Source of the DNA: Pseudoxanthomonas sp. J35
Lineage (GTDB): Bacteria; Pseudomonadota; Gammaproteobacteria; Xanthomonadales; Xanthomonadaceae
DNA length: 64,000 bases
Assembly: GCF_000513995.1 (NCBI RefSeq)
Contig: NZ_AZVB01000023.1
Location: forward strand, 139 to 64,138
Direction: 5' to 3'
Part shown: positions 2,293-6,097 of the stretch, in pieces
How the letters are laid out: the number at the start of each line of letters is the position of its first letter
How positions within the stretch are numbered: the first letter of the stretch is position 1
Made by a program: the position numbers and the translations under genes
Notes under the pieces: model-generated
Seen by the model: the letters and a program-made list of their open reading frames with translations, nothing else
Database searches by the model: none
Told to the model about the DNA's origin: nothing

Positions 2293-2472
2293 GTCGGTTC
2301 CGCCGGTGCTCGCCGGTGGATGAAAAGGGAAGCCGGTCGAAACCCGGCACTGCCCCGCAGCGGTAGATGGAGACGACGTCGCACCTGGCACTGGGATGGT
2401 GATCCCGGGAAGCCGCGACCGAGGAGGTACCGGACGCCGGTACCACATCCATGAGTCCGAAGACCTGCCGAC
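2293..2472 (+). promoter_or_regulatory. Cobalamin (B12) riboswitch
   Basis: The leader of nrdA holds the hallmark blocks of the AdoCbl riboswitch in order: AAAAGGGAAGCCGGT (2322-2336), the B12-box-like AACCCGGCACTGCCCCGC (from about 2340), CACTGGGA (about 2389), CCCGGGAAGC (about 2404) and GAGTCCGAAGACCTGCC (2453-2469). GTCGG at 2293 and CCGAC at 2468 can close helix P1. Cobalamin binding is expected to lower expression of the class Ia reductase, as in other bacteria that also carry a B12-dependent class II enzyme; whether this genome has nrdJ cannot be seen here. Exact limits are approximate. Confidence 0.92.
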
Positions 2473-2590
2473 AGCCGCGCGCAGCACACCGCGCGGTGCC
2501 GGCCGCGGAGTCTCCGGGGGGAGATGGCTGGTGCAGCAGGACCAGCCGCCACCCCACGTCGCGGCTCCTGCGACACCGCATGCCTACCCT

Positions 2591-2656
2591 GTTTCTCCGA
2601 TGCCATGCGCGCCTGCGTGGGACAGGCGCGCGCCCGTGCATCACGCATGGAGAAAC
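2591..2656 (+). promoter_or_regulatory. RBS-sequestering hairpin of nrdA (likely expression platform)
   Basis: GTTTCT (2591-2596) and CCATGCG (2603-2609) pair with CGCATGGAGAAAC (2644-2656), with GCGCCTG/CAGGCGC as an inner hairpin. The 3' arm contains the GGAG ribosome-binding site of nrdA, so the folded form would block translation. There is no U-run after any leader hairpin, which argues for translational rather than transcriptional control by the riboswitch. The competing anti-sequestor pairing is not worked out. Confidence 0.6.
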
Positions 2657-2660
2657 TCCG

Positions 2661-5084
2661 ATGAATCCGAACGAAGCCGCCGTGGCCGACGCCGCGCCCG
2701 CCGCGCCTGCCTTCGACCTGACCCCGCCGCCGGCGGCCACGACGATGCGCGTGACCAAGCGCAATGGGCAGAGCGAGGCGGTCGACCTCAACAAGATCGT
2801 GCGGGCCATCGCCCGTGCCGCCGAAGGCCTTTATTCGGTGGAACCGATGAGGGTGGCCACGCGCACGATCTCCGGCCTGTACGACGGCGCCACCACCGCC
2901 GAACTGGACGAGCTGTCCATCCGCACCGCGGCGCTGCTGACCGCGGAGGAACCCGAGTACGGGCGGCTGGCGGCGCGCCTGCTGGCGGGCGTGATCGCCA
3001 AGGAGGTCTCCGGGCAGGAGATCCACGCCTTCTCCCAGTCCATCAACCGCGGCCATGAACTGGGCCTGGTCAACGACCGCCTGCTCGGCTTCGTGCAGGC
3101 CAATGCGCGCAAGCTGAACGACGCGCTGGATGCGACGCTCGACCGCAACTTCGACTACTTCGGCCTGCGCACCCTGTACGACCGCTACCTGCTGCGCCAT
3201 CCGCAGACGCGCAAGGTGATCGAGACCCCGCAGCAGTTCTTCATGCGCATCGCCAGCGCGCTGAGCGAGGACGTCCCCGGCGCCATCGCCCTGTACCGGC
3301 GCATGGCCGAGCTCGATTACCTGCCCTCCTCGCCGACGCTGTTCAACAGCGGCACCACGCACGAGCAGCTGTCGTCGTGTTTTCTGCTGGATTCGCCGCA
3401 GGACACGCTGGAGTCCATCTATGCCCGCTACGGCGACATCGCCCAGCTGAGCAAGTTCAGCGGCGGGATCGGGGTCAGCTATACGCGGGTCAGGGCCCGC
3501 GGTTCGCTGATCCGTTCGACCAATGGCCACAGCAACGGGATCGTGCCGTGGCTGAAGACGCTGGATTCCTCGGTCGCGGCGGTCAACCAGGGCGGCAAGC
3601 GCAAGGGCGCCGCCTGCGTCTACCTCGAGCCCTGGCATGCCGACGTCGAGGAATTCCTCGAGCTGCGCGACAACACCGGCGACGAGGCGCGCCGCACCCA
3701 CAACCTCAACCTCGCCAACTGGATCCCGGACCTGTTCATGCGCCGGGTGGAGGCCGATGCGGAGTGGTCCCTGTTCGACCCGCGCGTGGTCCCGGAGCTG
3801 GTTGACCTGTACGGCGAGAGTTTCGACCGGGCCTACGAGCAGGCCGAGGTCCAGGGCAAGGCAGCCAGGATGGTCAAGGCCCGGGAGCTGTACGCGCGGA
3901 TGATGCGGACGCTCGCGCAGACCGGCAACGGCTGGATGACGTTCAAGGACAAGTGCAACCGCGCCAGCAACCAGACCCTTCGCGCCGGCAACGTGATCCA
4001 CCTGTCCAACCTGTGCACGGAGATCCTCGAGGTCACCTCCAGCGAGGAGACCGCGGTGTGCAACCTCGGCTCGATCAACCTGGCCCGCCACCTCGACGAG
4101 GACGGCGCCTTCGACTTCGACAAGCTGGCCGAGACCGTGCGCCTGGCGGTGCGCCAGCTCGACCGCGTGATCGACCTCAACTTCTATCCGATCGAGAGCG
4201 CCCGCCGCGGCAACCTGCGCTGGCGCCCGGTCGGGCTGGGCTGCATGGGCCTGCAGGACGTGTTCTTCCGCCTGCGCCTGCCGTTCGACGCCCCCGAGGC
4301 GCGCGCGCTCTCGGCCAGGATCGCCGAGACGATCTACTACCACGCCCTGGAGACCTCCTGCGAGCTGGCCCAGGAGCGCGGGCCCCACCCGTCCTTCGCC
4401 GATACCCGTGCGGCCAATGGCGAGCTGCAGTTCGACGCCTGGAACGTCGTCCCCGCGGATGCGGAGCGCTGGGACGCGCTGCGCGAGCGGATCCGCCGCC
4501 ATGGCCTGCGCAACTCCCTGCTGGTCGCCATCGCCCCGACCGCGACGATCGCCTCCATCGCCGGCTGCTACGAGTGCGTGGAACCGCAGGTGTCCAACCT
4601 GTTCAAGCGCGAGACCCTGTCCGGCGACTTCCTGCAGGTCAACCGCTACCTGGTCGACGAGCTCAAGACCCTGGGCCTGTGGACGCCGGAAATGCGCGAC
4701 GCCATCAAGCTGGCCGAAGGCTCGATCCAGGCCCTGCCGCAGATCCCCCGGCTCCTGCGCGACGTCTACCGCACTGCCTGGGAAATTCCGATGCGCTCGC
4801 TGATCGACATGGCCACCGACCGCGGCGCCTTCATCGACCAGTCGGCCTCGCTCAACCTGTTCATGGAAAGCCCCACCATCGGCGCCCTGTCCTCCATGTA
4901 CATGTACGCCTGGAAGAAGGGCATCAAGACCACCTACTACCTGCGTTCGCGCCCGGCCACCCGCATCGCCAAGGCGACGGTTGCCGGCAGTACCGGAGCC
5001 CGGGCCCCGGCACCGGACTACACGCCGGAGCAGGCCGTGGCCTGCTCGCTGGAGAACCCCGAAGCCTGCGAGGCCTGCCAGTGA
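2661..5084 (+). CDS. nrdA: Class Ia ribonucleoside-diphosphate reductase, alpha subunit
   Basis: The protein has 807 residues. It makes deoxyribonucleotides from ribonucleoside diphosphates, using a radical delivered by NrdB. An N-terminal ATP-cone (about residues 29-115, MRVTKRNGQSEAVDLNKI) gives allosteric control. The radical/redox cysteines are visible: Cys240 (SSCFLL), Cys452 in NLCTE, with Asn450 and Glu454 of the same motif, and Cys467 (CNLGSIN). The radical-relay tyrosine pair is at 759-760 (TTYYLRS), and the C-terminal dithiol relay is CEACQ. I start at the ATG at 2661 after GGAG because the upstream frame extension lies inside the riboswitch. The gene overlaps nrdB. Expression should fall when cobalamin is plentiful, because of the leader riboswitch. 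Confidence 0.97.
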   Translation: MNPNEAAVADAAPAAPAFDLTPPPAATTMRVTKRNGQSEAVDLNKIVRAIARAAEGLYSVEPMRVATRTISGLYDGATTAELDELSIRTAALLTAEEPEYGRLAARLLAGVIAKEVSGQEIHAFSQSINRGHELGLVNDRLLGFVQANARKLNDALDATLDRNFDYFGLRTLYDRYLLRHPQTRKVIETPQQFFMRIASALSEDVPGAIALYRRMAELDYLPSSPTLFNSGTTHEQLSSCFLLDSPQDTLESIYARYGDIAQLSKFSGGIGVSYTRVRARGSLIRSTNGHSNGIVPWLKTLDSSVAAVNQGGKRKGAACVYLEPWHADVEEFLELRDNTGDEARRTHNLNLANWIPDLFMRRVEADAEWSLFDPRVVPELVDLYGESFDRAYEQAEVQGKAARMVKARELYARMMRTLAQTGNGWMTFKDKCNRASNQTLRAGNVIHLSNLCTEILEVTSSEETAVCNLGSINLARHLDEDGAFDFDKLAETVRLAVRQLDRVIDLNFYPIESARRGNLRWRPVGLGCMGLQDVFFRLRLPFDAPEARALSARIAETIYYHALETSCELAQERGPHPSFADTRAANGELQFDAWNVVPADAERWDALRERIRRHGLRNSLLVAIAPTATIASIAGCYECVEPQVSNLFKRETLSGDFLQVNRYLVDELKTLGLWTPEMRDAIKLAEGSIQALPQIPRLLRDVYRTAWEIPMRSLIDMATDRGAFIDQSASLNLFMESPTIGALSSMYMYAWKKGIKTTYYLRSRPATRIAKATVAGSTGARAPAPDYTPEQAVACSLENPEACEACQ

Positions 5085-6097
5085 GCGCCGCCCGCCAGAT
5101 GCTGCTCCACCCCGGCTTCGAGCTCACCCTGCGCCCGATGCGCTATCCGCAGTTCTACGAGATGTACCGCAATGCCATCCGCAACACCTGGACGGTGGAA
5201 GAGGTGGACTTCTCGCAGGATCTGGCCGACCTCAGGCACAAGCTCGGCCCGGCCGAACGCCACCTCGTCGAGCGGCTCGTCGCTTTCTTCGCCACCGGCG
5301 ATTCGATCGTGTCCAACAACCTGGTGCTGAACCTCTACCAGCACGTCAACGCGCCGGAGGCGCGGATGTACCTGTCGCGGCAGCTGTACGAAGAGGCGCT
5401 GCACGTGCAGTTCTACCTGACCCTGCTGGACACCTACCTGCCGGATCCGGCCGAGCGCGCCAGGGCCTTCGCGGCGGTCGACAACATCCCGTCGATCCGC
5501 CGGAAGGCCGAGTTCTGCTTCAAGTGGATCGACTCGATCCAGTCGCTGCACCGGATCGAGTCCCGCGAGCAGCGCCGCCAGTTCCTGCTGAACATGGTCT
5601 GCTTCGCCGGGTGCATCGAGGGCCTGTTCTTCTTCGGCGCGTTCGCCTACGTGTACTACCTGCGCTCGCGCGGGCTGCTGCACGGGCTGGCCAGCGGCAC
5701 CAACTGGGTGTTCCGCGACGAAAGCTGCCACATGGCGTTCGCCTTCGAGGTCATCCGCACCGCGCGCGAGGAGGAACCGGACCTGGTCGACGAGGCGTTC
5801 CACCAGCAGGTGGTGGAGATGCTGGAAGAGGCAGTGGAGTGCGAGCACGCCTTCGCCCTGGACACCCTGTCCGGCGGCGTGGCCGGCCTGTCGCCGAAGG
5901 ATATGCGCGAGTACCTGCAGTACTGCGCCGACCAGCGCCTGGTGCAACTGGGCTTCCCGAAGCACTTCGGCTCGCGCAACCCGTTCCCGTTCATGGACCT
6001 GCAGGACGTGCAGGAACTGACCAACTTCTTCGAGCGGCGGGTATCGGCCTACCAGGTCGGCGTGGAGGGCGAGGTCGCTTTCGACGAGGCGTTCTGA
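5081..6097 (+). CDS. nrdB: Class Ia ribonucleoside-diphosphate reductase, beta subunit
   Basis: The protein has 338 residues counted from a GTG that overlaps the nrdA stop (GTGA). The ATG at 5099 is the alternative start. This is the di-iron subunit that holds the tyrosyl radical. The ligand pattern is complete: Asp74, Glu105 and His108 in YEEALHVQFY, then Glu180, Glu214 and His217 in DESCH. Tyr112 stands four residues after His108, the position of the radical tyrosine in class Ia enzymes, so this is not a tyrosine-free variant. It is translationally coupled to nrdA and under the same riboswitch. No ferredoxin or NrdH-like partner follows. Confidence 0.96.
   Translation: MSAARQMLLHPGFELTLRPMRYPQFYEMYRNAIRNTWTVEEVDFSQDLADLRHKLGPAERHLVERLVAFFATGDSIVSNNLVLNLYQHVNAPEARMYLSRQLYEEALHVQFYLTLLDTYLPDPAERARAFAAVDNIPSIRRKAEFCFKWIDSIQSLHRIESREQRRQFLLNMVCFAGCIEGLFFFGAFAYVYYLRSRGLLHGLASGTNWVFRDESCHMAFAFEVIRTAREEEPDLVDEAFHQQVVEMLEEAVECEHAFALDTLSGGVAGLSPKDMREYLQYCADQRLVQLGFPKHFGSRNPFPFMDLQDVQELTNFFERRVSAYQVGVEGEVAFDEAF

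Follow-up and report, generated by a model that had tools for sequence, protein, structure and literature searches.

A cobalamin riboswitch ahead of class I nrdAB in Pseudoxanthomonas sp. J35 and its association with class II nrdJ in related genomes

Results

The nrdAB locus and its leader

The stretch of Pseudoxanthomonas sp. J35 DNA analysed here (the window, 64,000 nucleotides of contig NZ_AZVB01000023.1) carries adjacent genes for the two subunits of a ribonucleotide reductase, preceded by a leader with the following features.

2258-2286, + strand: promoter-like site TTGACT-17-TATGTT, sigma-70-like (pattern scan)
2278-2486, + strand: cobalamin riboswitch aptamer (RF00174; cmscan, 111.8 bits)
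2460-2469, + strand: core AAGACCTGCC of the B12 box (sequence)
2474-2497, + strand: hairpin right behind the aptamer, with a conserved loop sequence (alignment, fold)
2498-2532, + strand: possible helix GCCGGCC/GGCTGGT enclosing the hairpin GTCTCC-GGGG-GGAGAT at 2510-2525 (alignment, by eye)
2591-2656, + strand: sequestering hairpin with outer helix 2591-2598/2649-2656 and inner stem 2607-2615/2623-2631 (folding, shuffles)
2649-2652, + strand: nrdA Shine-Dalgarno (SD) sequence GGAG (sequence; unpaired probability 0.00-0.02)
2661-5084, + strand: nrdA, class I ribonucleotide reductase large subunit, 807 aa, one ATP cone (NrdE_NrdA, 737 bits)
5099-6097, + strand: nrdB, class I small subunit (Ribonuc_red_sm, 280 bits)

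The two domain matches bear out the assignment of nrdA and nrdB to class I in the initial annotation of this DNA. Class Ia enzymes have a di-iron tyrosyl radical. NrdB retains the tyrosine of the E-x2-H-x3-Y motif, which presumably has the role that it plays in E. coli NrdB, and the metal is not readable from the sequence. The core blocks of an adenosylcobalamin (AdoCbl) riboswitch that had been recognized upstream of nrdA likewise fall within a match to the Rfam cobalamin covariance model that covers the full model (positions 1-189) and lies far above the cut-off of 31.5 bits (E = 3.6e-27). The promoter-like site is directly upstream of, and adjoins, this aptamer, and shuffled sequences yield 0.0 +/- 0.2 such sites in the same pattern scan. 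Sites with at least 9 of 12 matches are present before the aptamer in 56 of 59 riboswitch-nrdA leaders, a count that was made without a shuffle control and that retains 5 leaders identical to others past the B12 box. Transcription is predicted to start near 2293, about 7 bases past TATGTT and at the position where the initial annotation had placed the start of the feature, so that the RNA would begin with the aptamer, the transcribed part of which probably starts there.

The hairpin at 2474-2497, directly behind the aptamer, shares part of its 5' arm with the 3' strand of the helix that closes the aptamer. A kissing contact between L5 and L13 is a feature of cobalamin riboswitches; the L5 tip is variable in the leaders compared here, and no matching downstream loop was found in them by eye. 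An upstream open reading frame at GGAGATGGCTGGTG, present in some leaders, was dropped as a conserved feature because its GTG is GCG in many others. A tandem hexamer repeat, (GGCATC)n, occupies 2070-2121 of the window, some 140 bases before the promoter-like site of nrdA.

A hairpin over the nrdA Shine-Dalgarno sequence

Folding recovers exactly the hairpin at 2591-2656 that had been proposed to hold the ribosome-binding site in its 3' arm, with the GGAG buried upstream of the nrdA ATG at 2661. In the outer helix, GTTTCTCC (2591-2598) pairs with GGAGAAAC (2649-2656) with probabilities of 0.94-0.98 in three fold windows, and the inner stem has a pair probability of 0.87. The fold of 2588-2663 has an energy of -36.8 kcal/mol, compared with -26.2 +/- 3 kcal/mol among 200 dinucleotide shuffles, one of which folds as well (z -3.53), and the SD/arm duplex alone gives z -4.0, with 0 of 300 arm shuffles as good. 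Moreover, the hairpin lies about 120 bases downstream of the B12 box, matching the annotated spacing, and a pattern scan of 1900-2700 identified no terminator-like site on the + strand, in keeping with the earlier statement that a U-run is lacking. An SD within a hairpin and the absence of an intrinsic terminator from the + strand are features of a riboswitch of the translational type. In translational cobalamin riboswitches the ligand favours the SD-burying fold; by analogy with these, and given the presence of nrdJ described below, AdoCbl should do the same here.

Aptamer-dependent exposure of the SD, which folding the leader with and without an aptamer constraint might have revealed, was not seen. 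The SD of the window leader is buried in both cases, in the minimum-energy structure and in the ensemble, so that no switch is visible in silico. Two-state folding of the 59 leaders gives a mean unpaired probability for the SD of 0.21 when the aptamer 3' strand is available and 0.25 when it is withheld, a difference that is small and opposite in sign to that expected of an OFF switch. An antisequestor formed by GGAGATGG and the anti-SD arm was rejected, being no better than shuffles (mean z +0.73, 0 at p<=0.05, n=51 after 3 of 54 leaders lacking the arm anchor had been omitted). The ON state may need co-transcriptional folding or a tertiary contact, both of which lie beyond the fold models used. 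Burial of the SD in every model of the window leader is also what one would expect were the hairpin at 2591-2656 a constitutive brake, or an element that serves stability, with no connection to B12, and the aptamer acted in some other way. That reading, which we hold to be very unlikely, sits poorly with the riboswitch-free nrdA leaders of relatives, nearly all of them from one Stenotrophomonas clade, in which the SD is paired less.

For this comparison 17 riboswitch loci without a start call were left out, 5 exact duplicates (retained in the two-state folding and the promoter count) were removed for the alignment and SD tests, and 1 of 37 riboswitch-free leaders was removed as a duplicate; L125, which has a misparsed start, is among the 36 remaining in the SD/arm test and was dropped from the accessibility test (n=35), and L097, without an anchor, was left out of the SD-helix comparison. 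The median unpaired probability of the SD is 0.18 in riboswitch leaders (n=54) and 0.42 in riboswitch-free nrdA leaders (n=35), with a Mann-Whitney p of 1.5e-8 that overstates the significance, since relatedness was ignored and is marked among these leaders, most of all among the riboswitch-free set. Values below 0.25 are found in 34 of 54 riboswitch leaders compared to 3 of 35 riboswitch-free leaders, and values below 0.5 in 52 and 23, respectively. In the SD/arm shuffle test the 54 distinct riboswitch leaders have a mean z of -0.74 (10 at p<=0.05), and the 36 riboswitch-free leaders have a mean z of +0.51 (0/36 at p<=0.05). The letters of the SD helix differ between leaders, as in GTTTCTCC/GGAGAAAC in the window, GTGGTTC/GAACCAC in L138, GCATCCTC/GAGGATGC in L005, GATCCTCCAT/ATGGAGGATT in L079, and GTCCTTC/GAAGGAC in L120. 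Column covariation among 5 near leaders, in which the outer helix is paired in 75% of cells, is only weakly positive: 3 pairs have changed on both sides, shuffles give 1.7, and 58 of 500 shuffles score as high. The weakness reflects a helix register that moves from one species to the next. The expectation that the pairing would be conserved in relatives is therefore borne out as far as SD-burying pairing recurs, whereas few single leaders pass the shuffle test and the column covariation is weak.

A different reading of the same leader places control at transcription, with the AdoCbl-bound, untranslated leader open to Rho and the terminal hairpin merely lowering basal translation. The predicted burial of the SD in both states and the GC-rich character of the leader, which is about 370 nt long, would suit such a mechanism, as would the report of transcriptional control by the Streptomyces nrdABS riboswitch, to judge from the title of Borovok 2006 as it stands in the reference list of PMC5962746. 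The absence of an intrinsic terminator from the + strand has no bearing on Rho, but relatives maintain the SD pairing with different sequence, and we consider Rho-dependent control unlikely, though a serious rival.

nrdJ and the supply of B12

The B12-dependent class II reductase that had been predicted elsewhere in the genome is present: nrdJ lies at C13:261689-263599 of the window's genome (G000) and scores 592.5 bits against a cut-off of 399.95. The genome also contains a gene for a PduO-type adenosyltransferase (201.8 bits), and its sole other cobalamin riboswitch match precedes btuB, which encodes a TonB-dependent vitamin B12 receptor (TIGR01779, TonB-B12; 610.5 bits against a cut-off of 599.7). 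A search of G000 for corrin synthesis with PF02572 and PF07685 gave no match to the former and none over the cut-off for the latter, with one below it at 22.8 bits. This gene content suggests that the organism would salvage B12 and convert it to AdoCbl.

Elsewhere in the genus, cobalamin riboswitches are also found before metE (L020-L023, L025) and btuB-like genes, with metE, a second B12-free isozyme, likely under B12 control. In a number of genomes a long insert that keeps the frame interrupts nrdJ, usually around model position 280, and open frames reach about 1100-1190 aa, which would fit an intein (G035, G042, G046, G051, G062, G071, G074, G079, G090, G099, G135, G146, G153, G165 and G189, together with G145, in which the insert is at another position). 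Class II nrdJ is the single reductase match listed for G018, G028, G040, G048, G064, G069, G075, G082, G086, and G095, species in which DNA synthesis may be B12-dependent. Contig C12 of G101 has, in succession on a single strand, nrdJ, a cobalamin riboswitch, and then a reductase-like frame.

Association of the riboswitch with nrdJ in the family

For 90 genomes of the genus and family samples that have a listed nrdA, we compared where riboswitches and class I nrdA matches lie. The nrdA counts are among the matches listed, with 39 genomes searched anew; in the other family genomes, second class I copies are covered down to the cut of the match list. The riboswitch precedes nrdA in all 75 genomes that have nrdJ over the cut-off and a listed class I nrdA. 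In 74 of these it lies 652-1002 bases before the nrdA match by coordinates; the remaining genome (G003), negative by coordinates, reflects a contig break, because a G001-like nrdA start follows its riboswitch. Both genomes in which nrdJ is cut at a contig edge are riboswitch-positive, and none of the ten nrdJ-less genomes that are 99-100% complete has the riboswitch before nrdA (G007, G032, G033, G059, G068, G078, G085, G091, G105, G111). A riboswitch without nrdJ was found in three incomplete genomes, G023, G039, and G045 (72, 83, and 87% complete). The last of these, which stands beside a lineage that has neither riboswitch nor nrdJ, has a weak match before nrdA (C234:5240-5457, 52.9 bits), perhaps a decaying switch. 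Outside the 90 are genomes with no listed class I nrdA (e.g. G018, G020, G040, G048, G051), G029 and G056 (82% and 76% complete, weak matches only), G107 (no match), G049 (a reductase match of 168 bits that has no assigned class and no riboswitch next to it), G101 (a riboswitch followed by a weak nrdA-like match), G098 (a two-part nrdJ and no nrdA), and G038 (89% complete, riboswitch not found). The G049 match (C1:588437-589963) and one in G170 (C141:15704-17248, 162 bits) fall outside all three reductase types seen.

In a named set of 79 genomes with window-type nrdA, in which the B12 box was identified by motif and L131 was outside the nrdJ search, riboswitch and nrdJ are both present in 41 and both absent in 33, most of the double absences belonging to one Stenotrophomonas clade. 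Five genomes break the rule: L116 has the riboswitch and only a fragment of nrdJ, and L084, L095, L110, and L114 have nrdJ without the riboswitch. The latter four are nested within the maltophilia/rhizophila clade of the NrdA tree, as if their nrdJ had been regained. L114, a record titled Bacillus subtilis SK7B5, is probably mislabelled, its nrdA being of Stenotrophomonas type and inside that clade. On the NrdA tree of the named set the riboswitch changes twice, with nrdJ absent both times. Further absences on wider trees are those of G033, of G068 (next to G017, which has the riboswitch), of G032/G078/G105 (next to G045), and of G007. Riboswitch and nrdJ are thus jointly absent in about six lineages, 6/6 concordant; a hand-calculated sign test yields 0.03 on the assumption that the six are independent, something that gene trees alone cannot prove. 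Pair tests on supported branches of the trees find 1 pair in the named set, and the wider trees supply 3 and 2 pairs, with median p values of 0.25 and 0.5. On average no test runs the other way, and the pairs are too few for significance. Taken together, riboswitch and nrdJ mostly come and go together. That the riboswitch is a functionless relic, as burial of the SD in silico might suggest, seems to us extremely improbable in view of the full-length aptamer match, the conservation of the promoter-like site, and this joint absence with nrdJ.

Probable exchange of nrdAB cassettes under the riboswitch

Class I NrdA in the genus is either of the window type (TIGR02504, about 370 bits) or of an E. 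coli-like type (about 145 bits), the two being 32% identical over 733 residues. At the E. coli-like loci that were laid out, a thioredoxin/glutaredoxin-like gene is next in 10 of 10 and a flavodoxin-like gene in 8 of 10 (labels by eye). Loci such as those of G004 and G015 share flanking genes upstream and downstream, which places the two cassettes at the same site. In the leader tree, 10 of 11 other genus leaders form one group (support 89/93) in which 5 leaders of each cassette type are mixed, favouring retention of the riboswitch over its arrival with each cassette. The same genus site holds an E. coli-like cassette in G007, which lacks nrdJ and has no riboswitch at nrdA, and the window type in S. 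maltophilia G133, which has an E. coli-like copy elsewhere and lacks a B12 box ahead of both copies. Stenotrophomonas genomes, e.g. G085, G111, and G133, can carry two distinct class I nrdAB cassettes; neither copy is behind a cobalamin riboswitch in G085 and G111 (by Rfam) or G133 (by motif), and in other Stenotrophomonas the window-type copy alone was checked.

The window's genome departs from this pattern. Its NrdJ is 99% identical to that of G015 (support 100/99); G015 has an E. coli-like cassette at the genus site, whereas G000 has the window type at a site without any of those flanks, adjoining genes with MoaE, MoaC, and MoaA-type domains. The window NrdA groups near Luteimonas aestuarii and Lysobacter with moderate support, and the window leader near Thermomonas and WH4bin29 (97/90). 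A single group of the window and 11 genus leaders is rejected (p-AU 0.017), and the G015 leader also falls outside. These placements and the separate site make it probable that the riboswitch-nrdAB unit came from outside the genus, with the NrdA and leader trees disagreeing on the donor. Contamination of the window contig was discarded as an explanation, the genome being listed as 99.99% complete and 0.01% contaminated. The tetranucleotide profile of the window without nrd correlates with six genus stretches (r 0.92-0.96) and two other G000 contigs (0.89, 0.94), a test that discriminates weakly because other genera also reach 0.85-0.92.

On balance we lean towards a history in which the riboswitch is stable and the enzyme interchangeable. 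The genus site would have kept its riboswitch while the whole nrdAB cassette was swapped between two distant class I reductases, an E. coli-like cassette of the window species, as in its near twin, would have been replaced by an apparently extra-generic riboswitch-nrdAB unit at another site, and loss of nrdJ would have taken the riboswitch too, independently in about six lineages. The switch thus appears to outlast replacement of the enzyme that it controls. Natural pairs such as G000 and G015, with near-identical NrdJ and different nrdAB cassettes, could reveal which part of the leader must adapt to a new gene start.

Discussion

We think it quite probable that nrdAB is subject to AdoCbl-dependent translational repression, with NrdJ taking over when B12 is present; here we infer the identity of the ligand, the direction and translational level of control, and the coupling of aptamer to hairpin. 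In this mechanism the cobalamin riboswitch would form the 5' end of the nrdAB mRNA, and salvaged B12 would be adenosylated by the PduO-type enzyme to give AdoCbl. When AdoCbl is present, the leader would adopt the fold in which the hairpin at 2591-2656 buries the nrdA ribosome-binding site, NrdAB would not be made, and the B12-dependent NrdJ would supply deoxynucleotides. When B12 is absent, the ribosome-binding site would be exposed and NrdAB would replace NrdJ.

The nrdAB riboswitch is a well-formed and evolutionarily supported case of an already known type of system. Borovok et al. 2006 reportedly described a coenzyme-B12 riboswitch on the class Ia reductase of Streptomyces, which possesses a class II enzyme as well. 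The locus resembles Streptomyces nrdABS in having a B12 riboswitch on a class I reductase and a class II enzyme in the same organism; unlike nrdABS, for which control is transcriptional by the title, it has the SD in a hairpin, and an intrinsic terminator was not found. PMC5962746 places some ribonucleotide reductases under riboswitch control, with reference to Vitreschak 2003 and Borovok 2006. Sun et al. 2013 (PMC3766115) describe, as a category, cobalamin riboswitches on isozymes that can stand in for B12-dependent enzymes, and nrdAB resembles that category as a B12-free alternative; the main text of the article contains 0 occurrences of 'nrd', 'ribonucleotide reductase', or 'Xanthomonas'. 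Among the literature found on B12 riboswitches and reductases in Xanthomonas, Stenotrophomonas, and the Xanthomonadales, no report is evidently on nrdAB, within coverage that mostly excludes subscription papers and is no proof of novelty. To the known system the present analysis adds that riboswitch and nrdJ are mostly present or absent as a pair, and that enzymes are probably exchanged under the switch. The first of these tests, across a whole family, whether a B12-free isozyme has a B12 riboswitch because the genome also encodes a B12-dependent counterpart. Within the genus, the metE riboswitch belongs to the same family, and its SD GAGGAA likewise has an upstream complementary arm, TTCCTCAT (L020); it differs from the nrdA leader in sequence and in controlling methionine synthase.
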